Shown here one piece after another: positions 12,057 to 58,676 of a DNA stretch of 64,000 nucleotides. Position 1 is the first letter of the stretch. The number at the start of each line of letters is the position of its first letter. Origin of the DNA: Fimbriimonas ginsengisoli (lineage in GTDB: Bacteria > Armatimonadota > Fimbriimonadia > Fimbriimonadales > Fimbriimonadaceae). Both the position numbers and the translations under genes were made by a program. Below the pieces are notes generated by a model, which worked only from the letters and a program-made list of their open reading frames with translations, was not told where the DNA came from and did not search any database. Location of the stretch: positions 1-64,000 of the forward strand of contig JACOSL010000062.1 of assembly GCA_016179045.1 (NCBI GenBank), written 5' to 3'.

Positions 12057-13436
12057 ATGGGCAAGGGGTTCCAAGTATCTCAACGGCTGGAAACTGGCGT
12101 CGGCCTTCGAGTCGATCCGCGCGTCGTCACGACGAGCCGGCTTTTGCAGCTCGGGCGGCACGAGCTCGATCAGGCGATCGAGGCGGAACTCAATGAGAAT
12201 CCTGCGCTGGATCGACTGGTCGAGGAGCCGGAGCCGCTCGACGAGCAGACAATTCTGCGCACGGTGGCTCCGAACGAGCTGCGGCCAGGTAGCGAGGACT
12301 TCGAATTTCGACGGAGCCTGCCGCAAGACGACGGGCACCACGATTGGATCGAACTTGCCGCCGACACGCCGACTTTGCGCGACCACTTGCGCGCGCAACT
12401 GATCGGCACCGTCGCGCCCCAACTGGTCAAGGTTTGCCAATACTTGGTTGAAGGCGTGGACGAGCGGGGCTACCTAACGCTCTCGGTCGAAGAGGCGGCT
12501 CTTGCTTGTGGCTGCACGCTGGAAGATGCGGAGTCCGCGTTGACCCGGTTACAGGCGTGCGAACCGGCGGGGGTGGGCGCGGCATCGTTGCAACAGTGCC
12601 TGCTGCTTCAGCTACGCAATGCTGACACCATCGAGCGTAAATTGGCACGGGCGATTATCCGCTCGCACCTCGACGACTTTGTCGCCCGTCGCACCTTGCG
12701 TCTAGCCCGGCGCTTCCGCGTCTTGCCGGACGTAATCGAGGCTGCGAGCACTGAGATCATGGCTCTGAATCCGTACCCAGGGGAGGGCTTCGGGCTCAAT
12801 GCGGCCAACCGATCGTCGCGAGCCAGCGGGATCACCCCCGATCTCGTCCTGAGCAGGACGGAGCTGGGCTGGGAGATCGATGTTCCAGGTCCCGATGCCT
12901 CCTCCTTGTGCGTGAATCGGTTCTATCGCAGGCGCTTGAGCGAAATGCACCAAACGCATAAGGCAGCGCCCGACGAGCGGAGGCACGTCGTGACTTACGT
13001 GCGCCGCGCGACCGATTTCATCGCGAGCATTCAGCAGCGAAAGCGGACGTTGCGGCGGATAGGGGAGTACTTGTCCGAACATCAGGGTGGATTCGTCTCG
13101 ACCGGGAGCTATCGGTTTCTCCAGCCGCTAACCCGGGCCCAGATGGCCGCTGACCTCGGCCTCCACGAGAGCACGGTGAGCCGGGCGACTATGGACAAGT
13201 TTGTCCAGATAGCCAACGGAGAGACCATCCAGTTCGAAGTGTTCTTCAGGCCCGCTCTGAGGGTGCAGAAGATGATCGAGGAGATCCTTGCGACCGAAAA
13301 TCCGGGCAACCCGCTTTCCGACGAGCGGATAGCCGAGCTTCTTGCCGAACAGGGCGTCGTGGTGGCGCGCCGTACGGTCAACAAGTATCGCGATCGCACA
13401 AAGCTCTTGTCCTCGCGCAAACGCAGATCGGCCTAG
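12057..13436 (+). CDS. rpoN: RNA polymerase sigma-54 factor
   Basis: The 459-residue product is RpoN. Region I is Gln/Leu-rich at the N-terminus (SRLLQLGRHELDQAIEAEL, then NENPALDRLVEE), where activators contact it. The core-binding domain occupies the middle (APQLVKVCQYLVEGVDERGYL). A helix-turn-helix follows in MAADLGLHESTVSRATMDK. The C-terminal RpoN box reads ARRTVNKYRDR, close to the canonical ARRTVAKYRE, and recognises the -24 element. Sigma-54 needs an AAA+ enhancer-binding activator; none is encoded in this window. Only a small membrane protein lies between it and the remA-mreBCD group. Confidence 0.95.
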   Translation: MGKGFQVSQRLETGVGLRVDPRVVTTSRLLQLGRHELDQAIEAELNENPALDRLVEEPEPLDEQTILRTVAPNELRPGSEDFEFRRSLPQDDGHHDWIELAADTPTLRDHLRAQLIGTVAPQLVKVCQYLVEGVDERGYLTLSVEEAALACGCTLEDAESALTRLQACEPAGVGAASLQQCLLLQLRNADTIERKLARAIIRSHLDDFVARRTLRLARRFRVLPDVIEAASTEIMALNPYPGEGFGLNAANRSSRASGITPDLVLSRTELGWEIDVPGPDASSLCVNRFYRRRLSEMHQTHKAAPDERRHVVTYVRRATDFIASIQQRKRTLRRIGEYLSEHQGGFVSTGSYRFLQPLTRAQMAADLGLHESTVSRATMDKFVQIANGETIQFEVFFRPALRVQKMIEEILATENPGNPLSDERIAELLAEQGVVVARRTVNKYRDRTKLLSSRKRRSA

Positions 13437-13499
13437 CGGGAACTTCCGCCCCGGCGCGCCCCGTCAGGGTATCGTAGGCACGTTGTCGGAAGCTTCCCG

Positions 13500-13766
13500 A
13501 TGAAAAACCAACTCGACACCATAATCATGATCGCCGCATTGGTCGTGGCGCTCGTCACGGCAGGCATTTTCTACGGAACCAAGCGGGCGCCTTTGCCCGC
13601 CATGCAGGTGACACCGACGGACGTGAGGCCGGTATCGCTGCCGTCTGGTGGCGTCGTCATGGCGAACGCGCCTTCGTCGGGGCGCGGGGCGGCGAGTAGC
13701 GCCACCGCGGGCAGCGCAAGCACCGGCAGCCGTGGCGGTCGGGGCGGCGGTCGGGGCGGCGGGTAA
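13500..13766 (+). CDS. Small membrane protein with Gly/Arg-rich tail
   Basis: The 88-residue product has one hydrophobic segment near the N-terminus (IIMIAALVVALVTAGIFYG) and then a low-complexity Ser/Ala/Gly part ending SRGGRGGGRGGG. The tail is encoded by repeated ggcggtcgg-type DNA, so it may vary in length between strains. I recognise no family. It sits between rpoN and remA in the same direction. It could be a small accessory protein of the cell-shape group or an independent gene. Confidence 0.5.
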   Translation: MKNQLDTIIMIAALVVALVTAGIFYGTKRAPLPAMQVTPTDVRPVSLPSGGVVMANAPSSGRGAASSATAGSASTGSRGGRGGGRGGG

Positions 13767-13833
13767 GGGCTCTTCCTCCGCTGCCGAGCCCACGGCTTGC
13801 GTGTAAACTGCCCCTTCGCAAAGGTGGTTTCGC

Positions 13834-15154
<1,321 letters not shown>

Positions 15155-48272: not shown

Positions 48273-48365
48273 TGGCGGGAATGTGTAGGAATCGAACCCA
48301 CCAGACCCTTTGGGGGTCTCACTGGTTTTGAAGACCAGGCGGCACACCAGCACCGATCCACTCCC
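48273..48365 (-). tRNA. selC: tRNA-Sec (anticodon UCA)
   Basis: Reading the minus strand, an acceptor strand gggagtgg begins at 48365 and pairs with acattccc near 48277-48284, followed by G and an encoded CCA at 48275-48273. The anticodon stem ctggt/accag encloses cttcaaa, giving anticodon TCA. A long variable arm has a 6-bp stem, agaccc/gggtct. The T arm has gtggg-ttcgatt-cctac. An 8-base acceptor, long variable arm and UCA anticodon together identify tRNA-Sec rather than a serine or suppressor tRNA. One acceptor pair (position 8) is a G-A mismatch in my folding. tatag a (48376-48371) lies five bases upstream and is probably its -10 box. Confidence 0.9.
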
Positions 48366-48370
48366 GGTTC

Positions 48371-48376
48371 TCTATA
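48371..48376 (-). promoter_or_regulatory. -10 box of tRNA-Sec
   Basis: The minus strand reads tataga, five bases before the tRNA 5' end. No good -35 was found. Confidence 0.4.
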
Positions 48377-48579
48377 CCGCGTCGGGGGGCGGTTTGGCGG
48401 CGGGGGGCCCGGGAGAGAGGGGAAATCGCTTCCGCGTCGCCAGGGCCGTCGCGACCCTCGACCTAAGATGCGGTGTGTCACCCATGTGTCCGAACATCTG
48501 TCGCCCAACTCCCAGGTCAGAACGAGCGCATCGCGCGGCAGGCTACGCTGAGCCTGCGCCCGGTTCAATCCGAAGATGT

Positions 48580-48595: not shown

Positions 48596-48686
48596 GGAGA
48601 GATGGCTGAGTGGACGAAAGCGCCCGCCTGCTAAGTGGGTAAGGGCCAAAAGCCCTTCTCGGGTTCGAATCCCGATCTCTCCGCCA
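48596..48686 (+). tRNA. tRNA-Ser (anticodon GCU)
   Basis: The acceptor stem ggagaga pairs with tctctcc, followed by G and an encoded CCA. The anticodon loop ctgctaa gives anticodon GCT, reading AGC/AGU codons. The long class II variable arm (aagggc...gccctt) and the T loop ggttcgaatcc are clear. It is divergent from tRNA-Sec, with a 230-base gap between them that holds no gene I can see. Confidence 0.95.
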
Positions 48687-48820: not shown

Positions 48821-48966
48821 GCGAGGCGACTCGTGACGAGCGACCGCGGGCCTGGCCCGACCCGTCATCTGAAGTGGGTCTCACGCGCAGGTCCGGCTTG
48901 CGGTCAAGGAACCAGCGGCCCGCGCCCGCGCGTAGGACTCTTCTGCCGCGTGGCAGACTTGAAGCC

Positions 48967-50604
48967 ATGTCCAAGCGCACGCTTTATCTGATTCTCGCCG
49001 GCGCCGTCTTGCTCGGCCTGATCGGCTGGCGATTTGTGGACAAGCGCAACTCGGCCCAAGGGTTGGCGAGCATGCAGCGCCAGCGCGGCGCGGGCGGCGC
49101 AAACGTGGTGCTCGCAACCGCGGGCCCTCTCAAGCTCATCTCCTCGATCGACTCGAGTGCCAACTTGGAATCGCCATTCGACGTGAAGCTCTCCCCGAAG
49201 GTAACGGGGCGCATCGCCCAAGTGCTGGTGCGAGAGGGGATGCGCGTGATGCCGGGCGAGCTGCTCGCGACCACCGACCCATCCGACGTGGAGAGCCAGA
49301 TTTTGCAGATGCGGGCGGCGGTGGCCGAAGCAAGGTCCAAGCTGGCTCAAGGCCAGATGGGCCAGGCGGGAAACGACGCGGGCGTGCGCGCCAGCCTGCG
49401 CCAGCAGCAAGCCTCGGTCGATGCGGCGCGCGCGGACCTCGACCAGACTCAGCAGGGCGTAGCCTCCAAGATCGCAAGCGACGCGGCGGCGGTGGCGGAT
49501 GCGGAGGCGAAGCTGAGGTCGGCGCAAGCCGATTACGACACCGCGCGCGCCAACCAAGACAACGCGCAGACCAAATTGGACCGCGTGACGAGCCTGTACA
49601 AGCAAGGCTTTATCGCGGCGCAGGATGTGGACGATGCGAAGACGGCCTTGAAGGCGGCTCAAAACGCAAGCGCCTCGGCCCAGCAGCGGATCGGCTCGGC
49701 GCAAGCCGCGCGCGACTCGGTGCTTCAGGTTGCGGAGGCGAACAAGCGCAAGTATCGGTCGGACGTAACCGCGTCCAACGCGCGGCTCGTGCAGGGCCAG
49801 GCGAGCCTTGCCGTCGCGGGCGCCAACCAAAGCCAGACCGCCGCCTATCGTGAATCGGTGGCTGCGCTCCGTGCGGGCCTCGAGGCAGCCCAAGCTCAAT
49901 TAAGGCAAGCGGAGGCGCACCGGGGCGACGTGTTTCTCCGCTCGCCGATTGAGGGCACGGTCACGGGTCGTTTCCTCGATCCCGGGTCCCTCGGCAATCC
50001 GAACCAGCCGATCGTCGAAGTGCAGTTCCTGAAGTGGCTGTACGTGGTGGCGCCGGTCCCGGTCGACCAAGGAGCGGGGGTGCGGGTTGGGATGCCGGTC
50101 GTCGTGACGTTCGACGGCTTGCCGGGGCGCACCTTCGAGTCGACGGTCACTTTGTTGAACCCGGCGGCCGACCCCGCCACTCGCCAGTTCACGATCCAGG
50201 CGAGGCTCGAAAACCCGGACGGTGTCCTGCGCCCGGGCATGTTTGGGAAGCTGTCGCTGATCACGAGGGAGGTCGACGCGAAGGTGGCGCTGCCCCGCGA
50301 GGCTCTTCGCGGCGATTCGGTCTTTGTGGTCGACGATCAGGGTGTGGCCCATAAGACGCCGGTCACCCTCGGCTTTTCCGACAACGCGAACGTCGAGATC
50401 GCGAGCGGACTGAGAGCGGGCGAGAAGGTGGTGGTGCAGAGCTACCAGCCGTTGCGCGAGGGAATGAAGATCCGGATGGCCGCACCGGGCGCCTCTGGCG
50501 AAGCGGCCTCGGGTGGCGCGTCGGGCGGGCCGCGGGGCTCCGGGAAAGCGGGCGGCGGACGGCGGTCGAAGGGCGGCTCGGGCGACGGAGGCAAGGGGTC
50601 GTGA
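48967..50604 (+). CDS. Efflux periplasmic adaptor (HlyD/MFP family)
   Basis: The 545-residue product has one N-terminal membrane anchor (LYLILAGAVLLGLIGW). The two half-lipoyl parts flank a long coiled coil: SPKVTGRIAQVLVREGMRVMPGELLA before it, and FLRSPIEGTVTGRFLDPG after it. The coiled coil (about residues 115-320) is unusually long and rich in Ala/Gln. The beta-barrel (VVTFDGLPGRTFESTV) and membrane-proximal domains follow, and a Gly/Ser/Arg/Lys-rich tail ends the protein. It bridges the RND pump and TolC across the periplasm. I took the ATG at 48967, since earlier residues come from the repeat-rich upstream DNA. The pump gene starts one base after the stop. Confidence 0.88.
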   Translation: MSKRTLYLILAGAVLLGLIGWRFVDKRNSAQGLASMQRQRGAGGANVVLATAGPLKLISSIDSSANLESPFDVKLSPKVTGRIAQVLVREGMRVMPGELLATTDPSDVESQILQMRAAVAEARSKLAQGQMGQAGNDAGVRASLRQQQASVDAARADLDQTQQGVASKIASDAAAVADAEAKLRSAQADYDTARANQDNAQTKLDRVTSLYKQGFIAAQDVDDAKTALKAAQNASASAQQRIGSAQAARDSVLQVAEANKRKYRSDVTASNARLVQGQASLAVAGANQSQTAAYRESVAALRAGLEAAQAQLRQAEAHRGDVFLRSPIEGTVTGRFLDPGSLGNPNQPIVEVQFLKWLYVVAPVPVDQGAGVRVGMPVVVTFDGLPGRTFESTVTLLNPAADPATRQFTIQARLENPDGVLRPGMFGKLSLITREVDAKVALPREALRGDSVFVVDDQGVAHKTPVTLGFSDNANVEIASGLRAGEKVVVQSYQPLREGMKIRMAAPGASGEAASGGASGGPRGSGKAGGGRRSKGGSGDGGKGS

Positions 50605-50605
50605 T

Positions 50606-53600
50606 ATGAGCATCGCAAGGTTTTCGGTTACGCGCCCGGTGGCGGTCACGATGCGGATTGCCGCGCTCGTGCTGCTCGGCGCCATCTGCCTGCTGCGGTT
50701 GCCCGTCGACCTTCTGCCGAAGGTGAGCATCCCGACGGTGGCGGTGTTTGTGAGCTGGCCCAACGTGGCGCCGGAGGAGATGGAAAGCCAGATCACCCGG
50801 CCACTGGAGCAGGCGGTTTCGAGCGCGCCCAACCTCTACCAGGTGACTTCGAGTTCGACCCTCGGGTCCTCGTTCGTGCGCATCCAGTTCAACTGGGGCA
50901 CCGACGTTGGACAGGCGGCGGTGGACGTGCTGCAGCTCGTTCAACGCGCGAAGGCGGCCTTTCCCAACGACCCGACCTTGCAATCGCCGACGGTTTTCAA
51001 GTTCGACCCGTCCGCCCAGCCGATCCGCATCTACGGCATATCGGGGATGTCGGACATCGTCAAGCTGCGCACCCTCATCGACAACGAGGTTTCGCCCATT
51101 ATCGAATCCGCCAACGGCGTGGCGGCGGCGACCGTGACGGGTGGGCAGGAGCGCGCGATCCTCGTGGACGTCGATCCCAAGCGCCTGGAGGCGTTTCACC
51201 TGACACTTGCGGACGTGACGAAGCGCCTGCAGCAGGAGAACATCAACCTTCCCGGCGGCCTTTCGAGGATGGGCAACACGGAGCTTGCGATCCGGAGCGT
51301 GGGCGATTTTGCCAAGCCGGAAGAGATATTGCAAGTGCCCATCGCGAACGTGAATGGCCAGAACATCCGGCTCTCCGATATCGCGGTTGTCTCCGACTCG
51401 CACCAAGAGCAGCGTATCTTTTCGCGGTTGAACGGAGAGTCGGCGGTGGGTCTTGCCATCACCAAGCAGAGCGATGCGAACACGATCTCGACCGCCCGCA
51501 ATATCGAAGCGAAGGTGCTGGACGCGCAACGGCAGTATCCGGGGCTGACGTTCCGGATCGCCTACGACCAGTCGGGCTTCATCGAACGTTCGATGAACGA
51601 CCTGAAGACCACCGCCGCGATCGGTGGTCTGCTCGCGCTCGGCATCCTCATGATGTTTCTGCGCAACTTCCGCAGCACCATGGTGGTGGGCCTGAGCATT
51701 CCGATTTCCATCATTTCGACGTTCGCGCTGCTGTACTTCGGCGGGTTTACGCTGAACACGATTTCGCTTAGCGGGCTTGCACTTGCCACCGGCCTCATCG
51801 TGGACGACGCGGTAGTGGTGCTGGAGAACATCTTCCGGCATATCGAACGGGATAAGAAGCGGGCGGCGGAGGCGGCGGTTTCGGGCGCGACCGAGATCAT
51901 GGGCGCGGTCGTGGCCTCGACGCTCACGATCATGATCGTCTTTCTACCCTTGCTGATGATCAAGGGCCAGTCGGGACAAACCTTCACCCAGTTCGCCCTC
52001 GTCGTGATCTTCTCGCTTGCGGTGTCGCTTCTAGACGCGACCACGGTTGTGCCGATGCTCGCCTCACGGATAATCAGTGAACGCGAAGTGGAGGAGGAGG
52101 CTCACCCCGAGCTTCGCGCGATGCACGGCACGAGGGTCGGGCCGCTCACGCGTCTGTTCGACTGGTTTGGCGGGAAGTTCAATGCAGTGGACGCCGCCTA
52201 CCGACGAGGTCTGGCCTGGGCGATCCATCACCGAGGCTGGGTACTGACGGGAGCGGGCCTTTCGATCGTCGCCTGCCTACCGCTGATCCCCCTGCTTGGG
52301 AGCGAAATGCTGCCTGCCACCGACAGCGGCGACTTTAGCGTGAGCGTACGGCTGCCGATTGGGACGTCTCTGGACAAGACCAAGGCGACAATGGACCGGG
52401 TCGAGCAGATCTTGCTAAGCCGCCCCGACGTGGAAACGGTGTTCCTGGCCGCCGGCGCCAACATGAGCTTCCGGGGCGCTTCGAACTCGCCGGTTTCTTA
52501 CCAAGGCGGAGCGACCGTGCGGCTCAAACCCAATCGCAAGAAGACGACCCAGCAGGTTGTTCAAGAGGTCCAGCGTTCGCTCGCGCAGATCCCCGGGATC
52601 CGCGGCCTGGTGACGCCCTTCGACATCGTCACCAACATCCTCACCGGCGGAAACACGAACATGGAGGTGGACGTCTTCAGCCCGGACCTCGCCTTGCTTA
52701 AGGCGGGGGCGGACCAGACCTTGCAGACGATGCAACAAGTCCCGGGGCTGGAGAGCGTCGATATCGGCGTGCAAGACGCCGCGCCCGAGGTGCAATGGCA
52801 CATCGACAGGCAGAAGGCAACCCAGTTCGGAGTGACGTTCTCCGACGTCGCGAACGCGATCAACGCGGCAACGAACGGCACGCTTTCGACCTACTACCTC
52901 GAGCGCGGGTTCCAGTATCCGATTTACGTGGAGGTGCCGCCGAACTTAAGGCGGTCGCCCGACCAGATCGCGCAAGTGCCGATCGCGACCAAGGCCAAGA
53001 ACCCGGACGGCTCGGTGGCTCTCGTCCGGCTTGGCCAAGTCGCGCACTCGGTGGTCCAGATGGGGCCGAACGAGATCGAACGCATCGACCGCCAGCGGTT
53101 TCTGCCGGTGCAAGGCAGGTTGTCCGGTCGCTCCGAAAGCGAGGTCCAGGCCGACATCGCGGCGGCGATGGCCAAGAATCCACTTCAGCAAGGGCTGCGA
53201 TGGGAGTTCGGCACGAACCAGAGGCGGCGGGCGGAGGAGTTCTCGGGCCTTGGCATGGCGGTGTTCCTCGCGATCGCGCTCATCTACATGCTGCTCGCGT
53301 CGCAGTTCGAGTCGTTTATCTATCCGCTCGTCGTGCTGACGTCGGTGCCGCTGTGCTCGATCGGCGTCGTTCTGTCGCTGTTCCTCACAAATCGCGCCTT
53401 CGGGCTGACCGCCTTCATTGGGCTTTTGATGCTGATTGGCATCGTGGTCAAGAACGGCATTTTGCTCGTGGACTACACGAACCAACTTCGGGCGCGGGGC
53501 TTTTCGCGCGATGAGGCGGTGCTGACCGCGAGCCCGACTCGGATGAGACCCATCCTGATGACGACGAGCGCGGCCATCCTCGGAATGTTCCCACTCGCTC

Positions 53601-53851
53601 TGGCGCTCGGGCGCGGATCGGAGACGCAGGCGCCGCTCGCGACCGCGGTGATCGGTGGCCTGGCAACGTCCTCGCTCTTGACCTTGTTCGTAGTTCCGGT
53701 CGTGTACACGCTGTTCGACGACCTCGCCAGAAAGCTGCGCAAGGACCCGCGAGATCTCGACCGATCCGAAATGGTCGAGCCGTCGATCGAGGCGACCGAG
53801 CGAACGCCCGCGCCGGCTGAGCCGGCAAAGCCGCGCGCGGGGGCCAAGTAG
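50606..53851 (+). CDS. RND efflux transporter (HAE-1/AcrB-type)
   Basis: The 1,081-residue product has the AcrB plan of twelve membrane helices and two large periplasmic loops. The start ARFSVTRPVAVTMRIAALVLLG is typical. The proton-relay aspartates are in GLIVDDAVVVLENIFRH, and FAIALIYMLLASQFESF and GIVVKNGILLVDYTNQLR in the second half are characteristic. It exports drugs, detergents or lipids using the proton gradient. The ATG at 50606 follows ggaggcaagggg. It lies between the adaptor and TolC genes in a three-gene operon. Substrates cannot be read from sequence. Confidence 0.93.
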   Translation: MSIARFSVTRPVAVTMRIAALVLLGAICLLRLPVDLLPKVSIPTVAVFVSWPNVAPEEMESQITRPLEQAVSSAPNLYQVTSSSTLGSSFVRIQFNWGTDVGQAAVDVLQLVQRAKAAFPNDPTLQSPTVFKFDPSAQPIRIYGISGMSDIVKLRTLIDNEVSPIIESANGVAAATVTGGQERAILVDVDPKRLEAFHLTLADVTKRLQQENINLPGGLSRMGNTELAIRSVGDFAKPEEILQVPIANVNGQNIRLSDIAVVSDSHQEQRIFSRLNGESAVGLAITKQSDANTISTARNIEAKVLDAQRQYPGLTFRIAYDQSGFIERSMNDLKTTAAIGGLLALGILMMFLRNFRSTMVVGLSIPISIISTFALLYFGGFTLNTISLSGLALATGLIVDDAVVVLENIFRHIERDKKRAAEAAVSGATEIMGAVVASTLTIMIVFLPLLMIKGQSGQTFTQFALVVIFSLAVSLLDATTVVPMLASRIISEREVEEEAHPELRAMHGTRVGPLTRLFDWFGGKFNAVDAAYRRGLAWAIHHRGWVLTGAGLSIVACLPLIPLLGSEMLPATDSGDFSVSVRLPIGTSLDKTKATMDRVEQILLSRPDVETVFLAAGANMSFRGASNSPVSYQGGATVRLKPNRKKTTQQVVQEVQRSLAQIPGIRGLVTPFDIVTNILTGGNTNMEVDVFSPDLALLKAGADQTLQTMQQVPGLESVDIGVQDAAPEVQWHIDRQKATQFGVTFSDVANAINAATNGTLSTYYLERGFQYPIYVEVPPNLRRSPDQIAQVPIATKAKNPDGSVALVRLGQVAHSVVQMGPNEIERIDRQRFLPVQGRLSGRSESEVQADIAAAMAKNPLQQGLRWEFGTNQRRRAEEFSGLGMAVFLAIALIYMLLASQFESFIYPLVVLTSVPLCSIGVVLSLFLTNRAFGLTAFIGLLMLIGIVVKNGILLVDYTNQLRARGFSRDEAVLTASPTRMRPILMTTSAAILGMFPLALALGRGSETQAPLATAVIGGLATSSLLTLFVVPVVYTLFDDLARKLRKDPRDLDRSEMVEPSIEATERTPAPAEPAKPRAGAK

Positions 53852-53853
53852 CG

Positions 53854-55233
53854 TTGATCGCGGGCCTGCTTCCAGGAGGGCGTCCAGGGCGCATTTGGGG
53901 GCTGGCATCGGCATTAGGACTTTGGGCGTCGGTTGGGGCGCAGACCCCGCCGGTCGCGCCGCAGACCACCGATGTGCCAGTTCCGGCGCCTCTCGAATTG
54001 CCCTCTTTCGCGGCCGATGCGCTGAAAGGGCCGTTGGCTGCCCAAGATGCGGTTGCCTTCGCGCTCGATCACAGTCCTGTAGTCCGGGCGGCGCGAGCCA
54101 ACCTCATCACCGCGATCGGGAAATATCGGCAGACCGGCTCGGCGCTCAATCCGTCGCTGAGCCTTTCACACACCTACACGCGGCAGGAGACGATCGAGAA
54201 CCGCTCTTCGTCCTCGGTGAGCGTGCCCACGGCGTATTCGTCGGCGGTGACTCTCAAGCAGCTCTTGTTCGACTTCGATAAATCTCCGAACCTGACCAAG
54301 GCTGCGCGGCTGCAGGTCGAGGCGTCGCGTCAGGCTTTGCGCCAAGCCGAATCCGATCTGGCCCTTTCCGTGAAGAGCGGGTTTTATACCGCTTTTGAGG
54401 CTGCCAGGCTTGTAGCTGTGGCGGAGGCCAATGTGAAGAGTCGCGGTCTGCAGCTTGAGTTGGCGAAGGCCCGGATGGGAGCAGGGTTGGGGGCGCCCGC
54501 CGACGTGGTGCGCGCGACCACTTCGTTCGACGACGGCCTTAATACTCTCGTTCAGGCGAGGGCGACGGCCTTAACCGCGCGTGTGCAATTTGCGGCGCTG
54601 CTCGGGCTTGATCCTCGGAGCGAATTGAAGCTCTCGGCGGGGCATGAAGCGGCAGTCGCGAGCCCTAAGTTGCCGGACCTCGTGGCGAGCGCCCTGTCGC
54701 AGCGGCCTGAGGCCCTCGCTGCCGTCGCCAACTTGGAATCGGCTCGTGCCACCCGCAAGGCGTCCCTGGCTAACGATTCGCCTAGCGTCGCGCTCAGCTT
54801 GATCTATGGCGCGAAGGGCGACCGCGACCCGACCCTGACTCAGACGGGAGCGGCGGCGCTCAGCGTGACCTGGCCGATTTGGGATGGCGGGTTCTCGCAC
54901 GGCGTGCGCATCCAAGCCGACGGCCAGCTTGCCTCTGCGGAGGCCGTCTCTCGGCAGACGTCTCTTGCGGTCGTGTCCGATGTGTCACAGGCCTTCGTGC
55001 TGTTGCAGGCGGCGGAGCAGCGGCTTACGATCGCCACCGCCGAGGAAGCCAACGCGCTGGAGGGTGCGCGGCTGGCGGAGGGGCGTTACCGGGCCGGGGT
55101 GGGATCGTTTTTGGAGGTCACCGACGCTCAGGCCGCGCTCGTGAGCGCGCAAACGGCGAGAGTGAACGCGGAATCGGGGCTGGATCGAGCGCGGGCGACC
55201 CTCGCCCACGCGGTGGGTCCCTCCTTGAACTGA
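53854..55233 (+). CDS. TolC family outer-membrane efflux protein
   Basis: The 459-residue product has a signal peptide (IWGLASALGLWASVGAQ). The OEP repeats are long helices: QDAVAFALDHSPVVRAARANL at the start of the first and TVEQRLTIATAEEANALEGARLAEGRYRAGVGSFLEVTDAQ-like sequence in the second, each followed by barrel strands (NPSLSLSHTYTRQE and PSVALSLIYGAKGD). It forms the outer-membrane channel of the tripartite pump. The TTG start at 53854 is two bases after the pump stop. It is the last pump gene of the operon. Confidence 0.88.
   Translation: MIAGLLPGGRPGRIWGLASALGLWASVGAQTPPVAPQTTDVPVPAPLELPSFAADALKGPLAAQDAVAFALDHSPVVRAARANLITAIGKYRQTGSALNPSLSLSHTYTRQETIENRSSSSVSVPTAYSSAVTLKQLLFDFDKSPNLTKAARLQVEASRQALRQAESDLALSVKSGFYTAFEAARLVAVAEANVKSRGLQLELAKARMGAGLGAPADVVRATTSFDDGLNTLVQARATALTARVQFAALLGLDPRSELKLSAGHEAAVASPKLPDLVASALSQRPEALAAVANLESARATRKASLANDSPSVALSLIYGAKGDRDPTLTQTGAAALSVTWPIWDGGFSHGVRIQADGQLASAEAVSRQTSLAVVSDVSQAFVLLQAAEQRLTIATAEEANALEGARLAEGRYRAGVGSFLEVTDAQAALVSAQTARVNAESGLDRARATLAHAVGPSLN

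Positions 55234-56856: not shown

Positions 56857-58676
<1,820 letters not shown>

Follow-up and report, generated by a model that had tools for sequence, protein, structure and literature searches.

Bacterial selenocysteine decoding by SelA, SelB and SelD, with bSECIS hairpins in the mRNA (PMC13188914), is the described system closest to the locus considered here. For the tRNA itself, the nearest counterparts are E. coli selC and the type represented by the Rfam family RF01852, with a UCA anticodon, a discriminator G73, an encoded CCA, a long variable arm, a 6-bp D stem closed by a 4-nt loop and an acceptor plus T branch of 13 layers. In its textbook 8/5 form, all eight acceptor layers are Watson-Crick pairs. 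The pair equivalent to layer 8:66 is C-G in E. coli and has been reported, together with two T-stem pairs, to serve as an identity element for SelB and an antideterminant for EF-Tu (PMC9976931). The tRNA-Secs of the Cloacimonetes and Epsilonproteobacteria types have an unusual 12-bp acceptor/T branch instead, with either seven residues from the T stem to G73 or a bulged nucleotide (PMC5330540).

We examined a candidate tRNA-Sec gene in Fimbriimonas ginsengisoli, in a stretch of 64,000 nucleotides (the window) that represents contig C64 of a 66-contig draft genome (2.27 Mb, 92.7% complete), and searched the rest of that genome and its relatives for the remainder of a decoding system.

The tRNA-Sec gene and its surroundings

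Three features of the window are relevant to the analysis:

48273-48365, minus strand: tRNA-Sec (selC), anticodon UCA, recognized by ARAGORN, Rfam RF01852, its fold and 138 homologues in the phylum
48371-48376, minus strand: likely -10 element TATAGA, within GGTATAGA, from the sequence and the conserved position of GGTA in the family
48596-48686, plus strand: tRNA-Ser(GCU), a divergent neighbour, recognized by ARAGORN and Rfam RF00005

Two independent methods identified the first of these as tRNA-Sec. ARAGORN called a tRNA with anticodon TCA at exactly these coordinates and on this strand, and RF01852 was matched over its full length (model positions 1-91) with 75.7 bits and an E-value of 9.5e-14, the gathering score of the family being 47. 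The minimum-free-energy fold of the stretch alone is the tRNA-Sec cloverleaf, with a 7-bp acceptor stem, a 6-bp D stem and 4-nt loop, a 5-bp anticodon stem, a 6-bp variable stem and a 5-bp T stem, ending in G73 and an encoded CCA. The minus strand of 48273-48365 is thus confirmed as a genuine bacterial tRNA-Sec. A preliminary description of the window, made from the sequence alone, had proposed a minus-strand tRNA-Sec with anticodon UCA, a long variable arm with a 6-bp stem and an encoded CCA, and all of these were recovered; it had also named a covariance model as a possible source of refutation, and RF01852 instead scored the locus well over its cut-off. The 8-base acceptor strand proposed there is correct in length but not in pairing. 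Each strand has eight residues, of which only seven pair, G8 standing opposite A66.

The gene therefore shares with E. coli selC and the RF01852 type every feature listed above, including the 8/5 layout of eight-residue acceptor strands over a 5-bp T stem (13 layers), but departs from the textbook form in layer 8:66, where a G/A mismatch takes the place of the C-G of E. coli. Like the Cloacimonetes and Epsilonproteobacteria types, it has just 12 standard pairs in the acceptor and T stems. Unlike them, it retains eight residues per strand, with the eighth layer mismatched. Another genome of the phylum (G254) contains two different tRNA-Sec genes (L092 and L124), one of which has a 7-residue acceptor layout.

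The TATAGA element ends 5 nt ahead of the mature 5' end of the tRNA, and a -35 element is not clear. A strict sigma-70 consensus scan produced no match. The likely -10 box of the preliminary description does gain support from relatives, as a GGTA with an A-rich hexamer after it lies some 11-28 nt ahead of tRNA-Sec in 19 of 23 family members, compared with 3% of control windows drawn from the same tRNA-Sec flanks. In the window this combination reads GGTATAGA. At the same place (48371-48378, minus strand), most members of the Fimbriimonadaceae have the GGTA-containing, -10-like box GGGTANAA, again with no evident -35. The box may possibly be a promoter form specific to this clade.

The preliminary description had also drawn attention to the adjacent tRNA-Ser, since seryl-tRNA synthetase must charge both tRNAs. 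The tRNA-Ser gene is real, but its position appears to carry no meaning: none of 29 related tRNA-Sec loci has a tRNA-Ser beside it (about 1.5 kb on each side, where the contig allows). We therefore reject a functional link, and tRNA-Ser(GCU) is a chance neighbour that shares only seryl-tRNA synthetase with the selenocysteine system. Near tRNA-Sec lie genes for an S9 peptidase and for an RND efflux system, the latter an operon at 48874-55233 on the plus strand for a periplasmic adaptor, an AcrB-type permease and a TolC-type outer membrane protein.

The 8:66 layer of the acceptor arm

The G8/A66 mismatch deserves attention because the equivalent E. coli pair is one of the three implicated in SelB recognition and EF-Tu rejection. 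A standard pair at 8:66 is absent from 116 of the 138 tRNA-Secs of the phylum (Armatimonadota), which have G/A (60), A/A (24), C/A (17) or another mismatch (15), leaving 22 with a standard pair. All 138 keep the other seven acceptor pairs. A pattern scan of GTDB genomes for A66 facing A, C or G matched at least 118 stretches in many phyla, and the mismatched state was found in Clostridia, Acidobacteria, Gemmatimonadota, Planctomycetota and others; the scan sought this state only and so says nothing on its frequency. Among 80 loci examined from the scan, 50 had seven perfect acceptor pairs plus the mismatch, and the 30 with bulged or shifted acceptor strands were excluded from this 7+1+5 type. 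With many phyla among the scan matches listed, the mismatch is not a peculiarity of Armatimonadota, and the oddness that the preliminary description saw in a real mismatch does not hold up.

These data bear directly on whether the gene is a decayed, non-functional relic, with the acceptor mismatch as the sign of damage. The unpaired G8/A66 could be read in that way, as could the splitting of selB by contig ends in the assembly (see below). However, the non-standard 8:66 state is common to 116 of the 138 phylum tRNA-Secs, which rules out damage as its explanation; it recurs in the other phyla named above, and the other seven pairs are kept throughout. SelA and SelD are present, and UGA is kept at active-site positions. 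We consider a relic very improbable. Since a mismatch is found in most phylum members and in other phyla, a fully paired layer 8 is no defining feature of the tRNA-Sec family. The non-standard layer is a common state and not a product of decay, and, judged from these sequences, the E. coli rule appears not to hold in Armatimonadota. That rule becomes testable, as the SelB/EF-Tu identity pair of E. coli is missing from most tRNA-Secs of the phylum.

A bolder reading, to which we give rather less than even weight, is that the non-Watson-Crick layer is selected and not merely tolerated, and that G/A, A/A or C/A at the junction of the acceptor and T arms may replace the C-G of E. coli in keeping EF-Tu off and SelB on. 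If this were true, the identity rules derived from E. coli would be one of several solutions.

Decoding genes, UGA codons and putative SECIS hairpins

The preliminary description held that SelA, SelB and SelD should be encoded elsewhere in the genome, the lack of them being a possible refutation, and all three were found. SelA is on contig C60 (PF03841, E 7.5e-132; TIGR00474, 497.7 bits), and SelD, on contig C7, contains a single internal TGA (TIGR00476, 347.5 bits). SelB is divided between two contigs: an N-terminal piece at the right end of C30 matches TIGR00475 positions 2-208 with 252.5 bits, over the family cut-off, and a C-terminal piece starting at the end of C23 matches positions 205-579, which includes the C-terminal mRNA-binding part. 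No sequence overlap was found between the two contig ends, and the last ~120 bases of C30 do not carry the SelB protein onward. The split is likely an assembly break because relatives carry a single, full-length SelB, and the window's genome likely contains one intact selB. A weak SelB-like match within the window (58275-58655) proved to be TypA/BipA. As in the described bacterial system (PMC13188914), all components are present and SelD is itself a selenoprotein candidate, but the genes are scattered (C7, C23/C30, C60 and C64) and there is no selABC operon.

The decoding markers co-occur in the family: of 81 genomes, 43 have tRNA-Sec, SelB and SelD and 31 lack all of them, which makes 74 concordant genomes. 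Of the seven discordant genomes, six are less than 90% complete. One entry, JADZEW010000001.1 (L182), is titled Methanoregulaceae archaeon SJ84 and has a tRNA-Sec stretch identical to that of genome G011. The genome search placed G011 in the Fimbriimonadaceae, and the title looks wrong.

According to the preliminary description, one or more genes with an in-frame UGA should exist in the genome, but outside the window. When the window was scanned by codon usage, the only hits were gene borders and antisense frames, and no redox motif occurred among them. Family-directed searches of the genome uncovered three genes of the expected kind, so that the number of candidate selenoproteins is at least three. 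The first is selD, which, when TGA is read as selenocysteine, continues through GAG-U-AAKLG at the known SelD active site. The second, from an AhpC/TSA search, encodes a SelL-related peroxiredoxin-like protein of 166 residues with TGA at FG-U-VFC; it aligns over nearly the full length of NF040769 (106.5 bits, E 1.2e-30) but falls below the curated cut-off of 120 bits, and was treated as a relative rather than a member. The third, from a thioredoxin search, encodes a protein of 334 residues with TGA at DW-U-SWC:

Contig C31 of the window's genome (G000), 12864-13865, plus strand: DUF2092-like/thioredoxin fusion gene with a UxxC thioredoxin domain

In this protein the Pfam thioredoxin domain scores above its cut-off and the N-terminal region weakly matches DUF2092. 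As in SelL-related (NF040769) and thioredoxin-type UxxC selenoproteins, U comes first in the UxxC motif of both redox proteins; the N-terminal region with its weak DUF2092 match, preceding the thioredoxin domain, sets the fusion apart from the thioredoxin type. Matches to the fusion protein occur in 74 of the 81 family genomes, with the TGA form in 10. No other AhpC/TSA or thioredoxin gene of the genome has an internal TGA. Formate dehydrogenase was rejected as a further selenoprotein, the PF00384 matches of the genome having no internal stop.

In relatives, the columns concerned hold TGA or cysteine and nothing else. The SelD column has TGA in 30 of 31 orthologues examined and Cys in one, the SelL-related column has 7 TGA and 23 Cys (30 loci), and the thioredoxin-fusion column has 8 TGA and 22 Cys (30 loci). 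All nine TGA-containing SelL-related genes and all ten TGA-containing thioredoxin-fusion genes are in genomes positive for tRNA-Sec (Fisher p 0.006 and 0.004, respectively, with kinship ignored). Three genomes with tRNA-Sec (G173, G001 and G005) have a full-length SelD match without an internal stop (Cys confirmed for G173), and so must keep the system for the sake of other selenoproteins.

An alignment of 29 selD genes shows two hairpins 3' of the UGA. The second has a stem of columns 27-32 with 38-43, a loop that begins after 32 nt and GU in the loop, and so lies within the published bSECIS limits (PMC13188914). It covaries: one G-C pair is replaced by U-A or A-U, and another by C-G. Taken together, the two hairpins have 94% of cells paired and a covariation score of 0.207 against a shuffled mean of 0.105, above 500 of 500 shuffles and every slid version. 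The second hairpin is likely the SECIS element. The first (alignment A1, columns 8-26) is conserved and has a loop without the early G expected of bSECIS. A simplified bSECIS rule was satisfied by 29 of 30 SelD UGA genes and, for the SelL-related family, by 7 of 7 UGA genes versus 8 of 23 cysteine genes. The hairpin of the thioredoxin fusion is weak, and the same rule does not clearly separate UGA genes (3 of 8) from cysteine homologues (6 of 22), although in the gene of the window's genome a hairpin of 6 bp, closed by a GGUC loop, does lie at 22 nt.

A tRNA of this kind might instead decode UGA as serine or cysteine, as in the selC* and allo-tRNA systems, where UCA-anticodon cysteine tRNAs and allo-tRNAs are documented (PMC7609411). 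Such a use would be compatible with the charging step, as tRNA-Sec receives serine first in every bacterial system known to us. It is at odds with the tRNA-Sec D stem and the end-to-end RF01852 match, with the presence of SelA, SelB and a Sec-type SelD in the genome, and with UGA codons that fall at redox sites and, in selD, precede a SECIS-type hairpin. There is, in our estimation, very little chance that it applies here. Sequencing errors or nonsense mutations, which a 66-contig draft or any single genome may hold, are a still poorer explanation of the three TGA codons, given TGA in the same column in 30 of 31 SelD, 7 SelL-related and 8 thioredoxin-fusion loci, and in both redox families only in genomes with tRNA-Sec.

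A selenocysteine system in the Fimbriimonadaceae

We are therefore left, with very high confidence, with 48273-48365 as the selC gene of a bacterial selenocysteine-decoding system that is both complete and ordinary. UGA is best understood as read as selenocysteine because the tRNA-Sec, the enzymes and UGA at the active-site cysteines of relatives in at least three genes occur together. Charging, conversion and delivery, like the chemistry of the three selenoproteins, would follow what is typical of their families. Seryl-tRNA synthetase would put serine on tRNA-Sec, SelA would turn Ser-tRNA-Sec into Sec-tRNA-Sec with selenophosphate from SelD, and SelB would bring Sec-tRNA-Sec to in-frame UGA codons followed by an mRNA hairpin (SECIS). 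Selenium insertion is predicted at these codons, and the system would serve at least three redox proteins, namely SelD, the SelL-related peroxiredoxin-like protein and the DUF2092-like/thioredoxin fusion.

A search of open-access papers found none joining Armatimonadota or Fimbriimonas with selenocysteine, and the three containing both Armatimonadetes and selenocysteine have titles on other subjects. Neither a 2016 survey that covered over 5,200 genomes nor a 2026 review of selenocysteine decoding names Armatimonadota in its main text. Among the open-access literature searched, this is a known decoding system in a new host family, the Fimbriimonadaceae.

By its gene content, the system appears to be a conventional bacterial one in working order. 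Its presence places selenocysteine decoding in a family for which we found no open-access report, and within that family the trait is patchy, with 43 genomes having the three markers and 31 having none. Genes cut wrongly at UGA, as the preliminary description foresaw, are what a standard-table reading of the three UGA genes yields, and in such genomes standard gene callers will cut short, at the least, selD, the peroxiredoxin-like gene and the thioredoxin fusion.
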